A DNA stretch of 32,388 nt from Promicromonospora citrea (lineage in GTDB: Bacteria > Actinomycetota > Actinomycetes > Actinomycetales > Cellulomonadaceae): contig NZ_JABEMG010000045.1 in assembly GCF_013004695.1 (NCBI RefSeq), forward strand, positions 1-32,388, given 5' to 3'. Of the stretch, positions 1,663 through 4,032 are shown one piece after another. The position numbers and the translations under genes are program-made. The number at the start of each line of letters is the position of its first letter. The stretch's first letter is position 1. Below the pieces are notes generated by a model that saw only the letters and a list, made by a program, of their open reading frames with translations, had not been told where the DNA came from and did no database searches.

Positions 1663-1735
1663 GGGGCTGTGGCGCAGCTGGTAGCGCACCTGCATGGCAT
1701 GCAGGGGGTCGGGGGTTCGAGTCCCCCCAGCTCCA
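1663..1735 (+). tRNA. tRNA-Ala (anticodon GGC)
   Basis: A full cloverleaf of 73 nt. The acceptor GGGGCTG pairs with CAGCTCC, including the G3-U70 wobble that marks alanine tRNAs. The D arm is GCGC-loop-GCGC. The anticodon arm is CCTGC-ATGGCAT-GCAGG, giving anticodon GGC. The T arm is GGGGG-TTCGAGT-CCCCC, and the discriminator base is A. CCA is not encoded. An identical gene lies on the opposite strand at 9593-9665. Confidence 0.97.
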
Positions 1736-1765
1736 CCCAGAGATCATCGTCCGAGGCCGTTCCGG

Positions 1766-1784: not shown

Positions 1785-1830
1785 AGGGGCGGCCTTCGTC
1801 GTCCCCGGCCATCGCCTCCGATACCGTCTC

Positions 1831-1854
1831 AACCTCCGCGGGTCGCGGTGCGTG
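1831..1854 (+). promoter_or_regulatory. Possible ECF-type promoter of the sigma-fusion gene
   Basis: AACC (1831-1834) and CGTG (1851-1854) are spaced 16 bp apart, as in many ECF promoters (AAC-type -35, CGT-type -10). Initiation would fall at or next to the ATG at 1864, where only a weak GGA precedes the start; this fits a leaderless, perhaps self-activated transcript. The match is short and could be chance. Confidence 0.25.
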
Positions 1855-1863
1855 GACACAGGC

Positions 1864-3936
1864 ATGGAGACAGTTGTGGCAGATCGGGTCGAGGTCCGGG
1901 TGGGCGGCTCGTCGCGGGACGAGGAGTTCGTCGCCTTCGTGGAGGCGCACGGCCCCTACCTCTTCCGGACGGCGTACTTCCTCGCGGGCGACCGTACCCT
2001 GGCCGAGGACCTCGTGCAGGGCACCTTCGAGCGGGTGTACCGGCGCTGGGACAAGGCGCGGAACGGCGACCCGCGCGCGTACGCGCGCAAGGTGCTCGTC
2101 AACCTGCGCACGGACACGTGGCGGCGCACGAGGCTGACGGACGTCCCCGGCGACGAGCACCTCCCCGTGGCGCACGCCGACGACCACGCCGCACGGGTCT
2201 CGCTCCGCGACGAGCTCGCGCGGGCGCTGGGCTCCCTCACGCCGCAGCAGCGCCGCGTCGTGGTGCTGCGGCACGTCCTCGACCTGCCGGAGGCACAGGT
2301 CGCGCAGGAGATCGGGCGCTCCGTCGGCACGGTGAAGTCCGCGAGCTCGCGCGGGCTCGAACGGCTGCGCACCCTCCTCACCGACGTCGTCCCCGAGGCG
2401 GCGGACGAGCCGACCTTCGACGGCCGGGAGACACTGACCCGCAGCAAGGCGGCCGTCGCCCGCCGGGTGCGGCGCGACCGTGCGCTCGCCGCGGCGGCCG
2501 TCGCGGTGTGCGCGCTCGTGGCGCTGCTGGCGCACGGACCGACCGGCGTCCCGATGCTCGACGCCGTCACCGGTCCTGCGCACCGCTGGCTCGTGGCGAC
2601 GTTCAGCGTGCCAGTCGACACGGAGGCCGAGGGCCCGGTCCGTGACGTGAGCGCGGTGACGGCGCCGGACGACGCCGTCGGGCTGGGCGACGTCGACGTC
2701 CCGGCGGCGGCCGCCCTCCCCGCGGACACGTGCGCGGGCACGGACGTCCCGACGCCGGACCCGACGCGGACCGTCCCGGTCCCGGGCGACGCGCCGACCG
2801 GTGACTTCACGGTCGTCCGCACGCTGGACGCCGACGACGCGCGGCCGGCCGTCGAGTGCCTCGACCACGTCACCGAGCACCGTGCGGAGCTCGGCACCCC
2901 GCCGGCGGTGATGCTGAGCGGCGCCTACGGCTCGACCCTGCAGGTGCCGTTCACCGTCCGTGCGGACGGGACGCTGGCGGCGGCCCTGCCGCGCCCCGAC
3001 GTCCCCGCGGGCTCCGAGCCGGTGACGGCGCTCGTGCGCCCGGCCGCGGACGGTGACGGGTTCGAGCACTGGCAGCTCAGTGCCGCCGCGACCGGCCCCG
3101 CGGTGGAGCCGCGCCGCTACGCGGCGGTCCCCGACCCTGTTCTCACCGACACGCACGTCGCCTGGGTGGACGGCGACGTCGATCTCGGGCCCGCCTCCGT
3201 CCGTGTGCAGGACCCGGACGGCGGCGTGCGCACCGTGGCCCGGTTCGAGGGCGAGACGGAGGGAACCCTCTGGAAGATCGCGGCCGGCGGCCGGACCCTC
3301 GCGATCGTGCGCCTGACCGACGACCTCGGCGCCGTCGACCGGTGCATGGGCCGGGTCGACCTGGTCGACCTCGACGCGCCGGACGGCGCCGTCGAGCGGG
3401 ACGTGGTGACCGACGTGTGCGCCGTCTCGGACGGCGCCGACGGCGTGGTGGTGACGCGCAACCCCGCCGACGGGCCGAGCGAGGTCGGGCTGCTCACCGT
3501 CGAGGACGGCCTGCGGACGTTCGCCGAGGTCGACCAGGAGCTGGCGTGGAACAGCTACGCCTTCGCGTCGGGCGACACCGTGCTGTTCGAGGTCGGGACG
3601 TGGATGGTGGCACTGGACGCGGCCGCGCACGAGGCCACCGTCGTCCGCGAGGACGGCGGGTGGACGGTCGGCGCGACCCACGACGGCGTCGTGTGGGCCG
3701 ACGGCGACCGCATCCTCTTCCTGCGCCTCGCGCCGCGCGACGGCGTCCCCGACCCTGCCCTGACCGCCCTCGGTCCGGACGACGGAGCGACCTCGTGGCT
3801 CGACGTCGCCGCGGCGGGGGACCGGGTCGTGTGGGTCGAGCACGACCGCGCGGAGCTGGAGCAGCTGCAGAGCGGGGACTCGTTCAGCTACGGCGACCTC
3901 GAGCAGAGCCTGGTGACCGTGCGCACGTCGTGGTGA
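1864..3936 (+). CDS. SigE-family ECF sigma factor fused to a membrane-anchored sensor-like domain
   Basis: 690 residues from ATG 1864; the open frame continues upstream, but only through tRNA sequence. Residues ~20-90 are sigma region 2 (AEDLVQGTFERVYRRW) and ~118-170 are region 4 (LTPQQRRVVVLRHVLDL, then SVGTVKSASSRGLERLR). This is the SigE-type ECF group, usually ~170 residues. Here the chain continues without a stop through a basic patch (RRVRRDR, ~200-206) into one hydrophobic helix (~207-223). About 460 further residues follow, rich in short strand-like repeats resembling the beta-propeller proteins often encoded beside such sigma factors. Positive-inside topology puts the sigma part in the cytoplasm and the C-terminal part outside. 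Four Cys in the outer part could form disulfides. There is no separate anti-sigma gene nearby, so the tether may control activity; that is inference. Confidence 0.88.
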   Translation: METVVADRVEVRVGGSSRDEEFVAFVEAHGPYLFRTAYFLAGDRTLAEDLVQGTFERVYRRWDKARNGDPRAYARKVLVNLRTDTWRRTRLTDVPGDEHLPVAHADDHAARVSLRDELARALGSLTPQQRRVVVLRHVLDLPEAQVAQEIGRSVGTVKSASSRGLERLRTLLTDVVPEAADEPTFDGRETLTRSKAAVARRVRRDRALAAAAVAVCALVALLAHGPTGVPMLDAVTGPAHRWLVATFSVPVDTEAEGPVRDVSAVTAPDDAVGLGDVDVPAAAALPADTCAGTDVPTPDPTRTVPVPGDAPTGDFTVVRTLDADDARPAVECLDHVTEHRAELGTPPAVMLSGAYGSTLQVPFTVRADGTLAAALPRPDVPAGSEPVTALVRPAADGDGFEHWQLSAAATGPAVEPRRYAAVPDPVLTDTHVAWVDGDVDLGPASVRVQDPDGGVRTVARFEGETEGTLWKIAAGGRTLAIVRLTDDLGAVDRCMGRVDLVDLDAPDGAVERDVVTDVCAVSDGADGVVVTRNPADGPSEVGLLTVEDGLRTFAEVDQELAWNSYAFASGDTVLFEVGTWMVALDAAAHEATVVREDGGWTVGATHDGVVWADGDRILFLRLAPRDGVPDPALTALGPDDGATSWLDVAAAGDRVVWVEHDRAELEQLQSGDSFSYGDLEQSLVTVRTSW

Positions 3937-3970
3937 GGCTCGGTGTGGCGGGCGTCACGTGGGGCGGTCG

Positions 3971-4001
3971 TTGACCTCAACCTAGGTTCAGGTCCTAGCG
4001 T
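3971..4001 (+). promoter_or_regulatory. MerR/SoxR-type promoter and operator upstream of sod
   Basis: A -35 TTGACC (3971-3976) and a -10 TAGCGT (3996-4001) are 19 bp apart, longer than the optimal 17, as in promoters worked by MerR-family activators. The spacer carries a 20-bp dyad at 3974-3993: ACCTCAACC-TA-GGTTCAGGT, with one mismatched pair. The CCTCAA half resembles known SoxR boxes. No MerR-family gene is in this window. Confidence 0.65.
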
Positions 4002-4032
4002 CGTAGGACATCCACACGAGAGGACGAGGACG

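Follow-up and report, generated by a model that had tools for sequence, protein, structure and literature searches.

A SigE-family sigma factor, a membrane helix and a propeller-like outer domain in one reading frame of Promicromonospora citrea

Gene layout at the locus

The window, the whole stretch of 32,388 nucleotides of Promicromonospora citrea DNA analysed here (contig NZ_JABEMG010000045.1), contains a gene on the plus strand at 1864..3936 that encodes an extracytoplasmic function (ECF) sigma factor, a linker, a membrane helix and an outer domain in a single chain of 690 amino acids. The gene is delineated by its reading frame, by alignment with relatives and by the ratio of non-synonymous to synonymous differences (pN/pS). 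Its 690 codons start with ATG at 1864, and the stop codon lies at 3934-3936. Relatives are numbered G for genomes and L for loci.

Residues 17-173 (1912..2382) form the sigma domain with regions 2 and 4. The SigE-family model TIGR02983 scores 166.5 bits here against a cut-off of 141.55, both PF04542 (Sigma70_r2) and PF08281 (Sigma70_r4_2) of Pfam exceed their cut-offs, and a whole-genome hit has the same coordinates. This agrees with a preliminary description of the sequence, which placed a SigE-type sigma factor in the first ~170 residues and saw the frame run without a stop into a basic patch, one membrane helix and about 460 outer residues. We find the patch, RRVRR, within a cytoplasmic juxtamembrane linker (residues 174-206, 2383..2481) of the pattern FDxxExLxRSK...RRxRR. 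It is followed by a single hydrophobic helix (residues 207-225, 2482..2538, assigned by hydropathy with a mean of 2.26) and by ~465 further residues, so that sigma domain, helix and outer domain share one unbroken frame. Because basic residues precede the helix, the sigma domain is predicted to lie inside and the C-terminus outside. Neither the sigma domain (residues 1-173) nor the linker contains a cysteine.

The outer portion begins with a stalk (residues 226-289, 2539..2730) that opens with a GPxxxP...P region; its remainder is poorly conserved and has a low predicted local distance difference test score (pLDDT) in the structure model. The outer domain itself (2731..3933) has modelled strands from about residue 316 to 687. 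Along most of its length the predicted fold corresponds to solved propeller structures, and it is probably a beta-propeller. The preliminary description had left this domain unassigned. That holds for family libraries, as Pfam and NCBIfam give no match to the outer part up to E 1; the structure prediction proposes a fold for a domain that neither library recognises. Two hits in a PDB sequence search with the outer-domain profile (E 0.27 and 0.34) were taken as chance, and a full-length AlphaFold model from 10 rows was set aside (pLDDT 47, predicted template modelling score 0.36).

Orthologues and conservation

A search of 150 family genomes with the outer domain (E 0.01) gives matches in 14. 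Eleven are full length, namely the window's own, nine other intact copies and one with a stop; two are fragments (G031 and G123), and L023 of G044 was rejected as a chance match near a leuA-like gene, judged by eye. One of the intact orthologues, G068, is filed under another genus. In the wider order, with few candidates scored per genome, only one of 297 genomes matches, and it is the window's own. The nine intact orthologues align collinearly with the window gene, sharing 66-69% identity (alignment A1, 10 rows), and C290, C332, C494 and C519 are invariant in all ten. The preliminary description had named a stop or frameshift between codons 170 and 205 as a possible refutation; none occurs in the window or in the nine orthologues. 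Since nine other genomes hold intact full-length copies, the fused frame does not stem from misassembly.

Uncorrected pN/pS among the nine is 0.18 for the sigma domain, 0.37 for the linker, 0.41 for the helix, 0.58 for the stalk, and 0.50 and 0.43 for the outer domain. The corresponding uncorrected values for the window against the nine are 0.21, 0.33, 0.41 and 0.71, with 0.54 and 0.60 for the outer domain. Every region of the gene therefore stays below 1. This bears on the possibility that the C-terminal half is a mere passenger or surface protein and the sigma factor inactive or decaying. Such decay would fit the remnants in G031 and G123, the in-frame TAG at codon 457 in the outer domain of the otherwise collinear copy of Promicromonospora sukumoe (G064, L016 2179-2181), the lack of any window-type match to the outer-domain search in G087, and the faster evolution of the outer part relative to the sigma domain. 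It does not fit a pN/pS below 1 throughout, a promoter-like site that recurs, or 34 fused copies across 12 of 13 genus genomes, and we consider it improbable.

Fused and split relatives in the genus

With a profile of sigma domain plus helix (A3), 41 matches come up across 13 genus genomes. The 34 that run through the helix are spread over 12 of these genomes, with at most four per genome. At E 1e-30, all helix-spanning rows come from this genus in scans of 61 family genomes, among which G068 is not listed, and of 296 phylum genomes with at most eight candidates scored per genome; more diverged fusions could be missed by these scans. Script-made gene calls yield 51 sigma genes, 31 fused and 20 unfused, four of the latter (two in L031, and those of L032 and L033) below the TIGR02983 cut-off. 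In 19 of the 20 unfused cases a same-strand follower starts between -11 and +4 nt of the sigma stop, and the remaining one lies at a contig end. The two genes overlap by 4 nt in 15 of the 20. No overlapping gene on the same strand follows any of the 31 fused ones. Several of the overlapping followers have a predicted helix after ~45 residues. Stand-alone homologues beside SigE factors, for which the preliminary description had proposed to look, thus exist in the genus directly downstream of a SigE-family sigma gene.

Tree, outer-domain cluster, promoter census and cysteine count use 30 fused genes plus the window gene; no window-type copy from G077, G105, G128 or P. sukumoe is included in them. 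The cysteine set (A4) is also without L157, the pairs from other genera and the fused gene of L031, and a further split pair, L154 (G111), stands outside tree, cluster and census. At L140 2341-6518 (G077), two fused sigma genes lie in tandem with 44 nt between them.

By BLASTP single linkage at 1e-5, the outer domains of all 31 fused genes, the window included, fall into one cluster with five partners from five genomes (L129, L147, L153, L155 and L156); ten other partners remain outside. Each of the five directly matches 17 to 23 fused paralogues with best E values of 9e-12 to 1e-24 at ~27-31% identity, and in most cases the match spans nearly the whole outer domain. A profile-profile comparison (hhalign) of the window type with the five partners gives E 2.6e-5, a probability of 74.9 and 30% identity, aligning the linker (FDxxExLxxS...RR), the helix and the stalk up to the second cysteine. 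The linker resembles the cytoplasmic N-terminus of a stand-alone partner. From RLR to GPV there are 52-56 residues in 31 of 31 fused genes and 49 in five of six split partners, where simple joining would give 70 in those five; the sixth spacing, 25, stems from a later RLR in that partner. Judging from these alignments, the partner function probably resides in the same chain as a membrane-tethered sigma factor. The preliminary description had suggested that both functions may sit in one chain. The tethered sigma domain and the likeness of the C-terminal half to stand-alone partners support this, although for the window type itself the link is weaker and comes through profile comparison.

The same frame might instead give two proteins through an internal start in the linker, which would act separately as in the split relatives; the preliminary description had counted this among its possible refutations. 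GTG or TTG codons do occur in the linkers of several fused paralogues. In the window, however, the sole in-frame candidate is GTG 202, which lies within the arginine patch and has no evident ribosome site by eye, and no stop is available to end a free sigma factor. We regard this arrangement as very improbable.

Among the partners, a Pfam PASTA match (7.8e-10) is present in one of 15 scanned. In the window's own genome, L025 1987-3123 is a SigE-family partner gene whose end appears PASTA-like, and the match was attributed to it by eye.

Origin of the single chain

Gene fusion is the likely origin of the single chain, as genus relatives keep both halves as neighbouring genes. We infer the direction, fusion and not fission, from the split form found elsewhere. 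Six of eight loci from other genera are split with an adjacent partner (L130-L134, L136). L137 has a stop after the sigma gene and no partner called. In L135 2697-3761 (G032), the frame of a SigE-family sigma gene continues open for ~480 nt beyond the point where the following gene, in another frame, is called to begin; a frameshift, a start error or a real overlap may lie behind this.

In a sigma-domain tree of 76 rows, 31 fused and five split rows form one clade (96/88), with the split L157 outside. A single origin for the 31 fused genes is not rejected by the approximately unbiased test (p-AU 0.194), and is thus compatible with the tree and not demonstrated by it. Mapping the fused label requires three changes, two of them forced by well-supported branches. 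The window's genome holds a separate fused gene, L031 8056-9786 (576 amino acids), beside a split sigma/partner pair at L031 5738-7986. In the tree this gene joins two split neighbours from another subfamily (support 100/100, with long branches and partly short rows), and the juxtamembrane sequence of the adjoining split partner is nearly identical to its own. Fusion therefore probably happened at least twice in the history of this genome.

The two genes of a split pair lie in different frames with an overlap of 4 nt, so a lost stop would not by itself have joined them; an insertion or deletion would have been needed. DNA microhomology at the fusion point was considered and rejected as an explanation: at 13 of the 14 split loci the observed value was matched by at least 45 of 300 codon shuffles, the one exception being L030 of another subfamily (3 of 300).

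Promoter-like sites

An ECF-type promoter-like site, CAACCT-N15-CGT, lies on the plus strand at 1830..1853, with the ATG 10 nt after it. It is probably a promoter through which the sigma factor would act on its own gene. The motif occurs twice in the window against 0.34 expected, and 6 of 100 shuffles reach two. The relaxed form AACC[TG]-N14-17-CGT is found at -33 of the window gene. Among relatives, 28 of 30 fused and 13 of 15 split genes have it between -150 and +110 of their called start; of 3642 equally long background windows, true sites included, 170 have it. The motif was drawn from the upstream sequences themselves, and the count is therefore descriptive. Matches to CTCAACCTN{14,16}CGTG across the 13 genus genomes comprise the window-type promoters and a site whose position marks it as another SigE-family promoter; many of the other recurrent matches resemble coding sequence by eye. 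Positive autoregulation is described as common among ECF factors (PMC5826349).

Comparison with known membrane-fused sigma factors

Sigma factors fused to membrane segments are known, and the preliminary description rightly noted actinobacterial groups among them. According to PMC8999054, some are probable ancient fusions with anti-sigma factors, and IutY is the one characterised experimentally for proteolytic release. IutY of Pseudomonas putida (ECF243) is cleaved by Prc and RseP, and it becomes constitutively active when its outer part carries premature stops (PMC5411451). By analogy, one may speculate that the P. sukumoe product, ending at codon 457, could be constitutively active and not dead. 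IutY shares with the window protein a cytosolic ECF sigma factor, one membrane segment and an outer regulatory domain in a single chain, and it is likewise treated as a sigma/anti-sigma fusion (PMC5411451 and PMC8999054). It differs in belonging to an iron-siderophore system with a TonB-dependent receptor, whereas the window protein is actinobacterial with a propeller-like model. A FecR-like outer domain is the defining feature of IutY. The outer part of the window protein has no Pfam hit, FecR-like or other; a TonB-dependent receptor was not sought.

ECF48, ECF52 and ECF53 are membrane-fused groups with a zinc finger and one or two helices, as outlined in PMC8999054. These actinobacterial factors, among them SCO4117 of ECF52, resemble the window protein in a C-terminal helix followed by an outer region and in a proposed release by proteolysis; for SCO4117 autoregulation is also suggested, similar to the own promoter proposed here. 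A zinc-finger domain is assigned to these groups; SCO4117 also has a proline-rich region and a carbohydrate-binding module. In the window protein no ZAS-like zinc finger is recognised by Pfam up to E 1 or among the best 25 of 86 NCBIfam families, and no carbohydrate-binding module by Pfam in the outer part, where the model matches propellers instead. Some members of ECF57 carry WD40-like repeats in the C-terminal extension (PMC8999054), which makes the Singulisphaera example comparable to our propeller-like model. In ECF57, two conserved cysteines are reported to link sigma2 and sigma4. Residues 1-173 of the window protein contain none, and organism and proposed mechanism differ as well. Also close are the split sigma and partner operons of the genus itself, with a similar sigma domain, linker, helix, stalk, outer domain and kind of promoter-like site, encoded by two genes with a 4-nt overlap and not in one chain.

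Extension-bearing ECF factors are many and spread over groups (PMC8103513). Our literature search, which covered result listings, abstract openings and few subscription papers, found no description of a SigE-family sigma factor with a helix and a propeller-like outer domain. The membrane-fused kind is known, and the form in the window is set apart from ECF52 and ECF57 by the features described for those groups. As fused and split forms coexist in one genus with a common promoter-like site, the relatives allow a direct comparison of whether the partner inhibits, what fusion costs and whether proteolysis is required.

Proposed mechanism

We consider it reasonably likely that the gene encodes a single-chain transmembrane ECF sigma factor, derived from a SigE-family sigma gene and the membrane-partner gene that followed it, freed by signal-triggered proteolysis and autoregulated. 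By analogy with IutY and ECF52, linker and membrane part would hold the sigma domain inside, while the beta-propeller outside would bind a ligand or wall component. The signal would turn the outer part into a protease substrate, a site-2 protease would cut the chain at the helix or close to it, and the sigma factor so released would initiate at AACCT-N15-CGT promoters, its own included.

Several findings weigh against this proposal. The window's genome has matches to the site-2 protease family M50, and so have 14 of 14 control genomes; with M50 near-universal, its presence says little. At the 1e-5 threshold the window outer domain has direct links only to its six orthologues in the cluster set, and its connection to the partners runs through these. 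With tblastn against L129 and L155, the window protein gives only one weak outer stretch (in L155, E 0.005). The hhalign alignment, at its probability of 74.9, covers only the first third of the partner and leaves the rest of the propeller unaligned. No known anti-sigma domain is recognised in the window protein within the Pfam and NCBIfam limits given for the zinc finger, and an NCBIfam scan of 15 partners gives one weak 'antisigma' hit (E 0.004). Since microhomology at 13 of 14 loci is not beyond chance, repeat-mediated deletion is not supported. The regulon pattern yields no target gene beyond the own promoter in the 13 genus genomes. The gene is also dispensable, as the window type is lost, decayed, unmatched or interrupted in four of 13 genus genomes (G031, G123, G087 and G064).

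Activity could also be controlled without cleavage. One-component regulators of the ToxR/CadC type are the model for tethered activity, and a signal from the propeller might alter helix and linker so that the tethered sigma factor recruits RNA polymerase. The narrow range of RLR-to-GPV spacing in all 31 fused genes would suit such conformational control, as would the fact that no dedicated protease was identified. Against it, IutY and SCO4117, two membrane-fused cases, are shown or proposed to need release, and a tethered sigma factor would be limited to initiation at membrane-near DNA. We therefore judge conformational control unlikely and favour proteolytic release. On a broader scale, we offer tentatively, as a possibility we would not bet on, that a fusion event within this one genus gave rise to a growing family of sigma factors acting as surface receptors in a single chain. 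There would be up to four of them per genome, each having its own promoter and a fast-evolving propeller of its own, and some may work tethered.

Neighbouring elements

A site at 3978-4001 before the neighbouring sodA also fits CAACCT-N15-CGT, but it sits inside an inverted repeat, and sodA was rejected as a regulon target. The repeat lies at 3970-4010 between TTGACC and TAGCGT, and resembles a promoter/operator of the SoxR/MerR type. The sodA start was located in 26 of 30 loci. By eye, a diverged version of the repeat is recognisable at four of the loci, all from other genera (L191-L193 and L203), whose genomes gave no window-type match in the outer-domain search; the AACCT part is lost in L192 and L193.

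In G031, the stretch from tRNA-Ala to sodA still holds the promoter-like site together with a remnant of the C-terminal part. A tRNA-Ala(ggc) gene lies just upstream of the window-type gene, or of its G031 remnant, in three genomes (window 1663-1737, L035 8365-8439 and L042 8577-8652), and the stretches examined from six others (L009, L036-L040) showed no tRNA gene. Genes may be gained and lost especially often at the tRNA-Ala-adjacent site.
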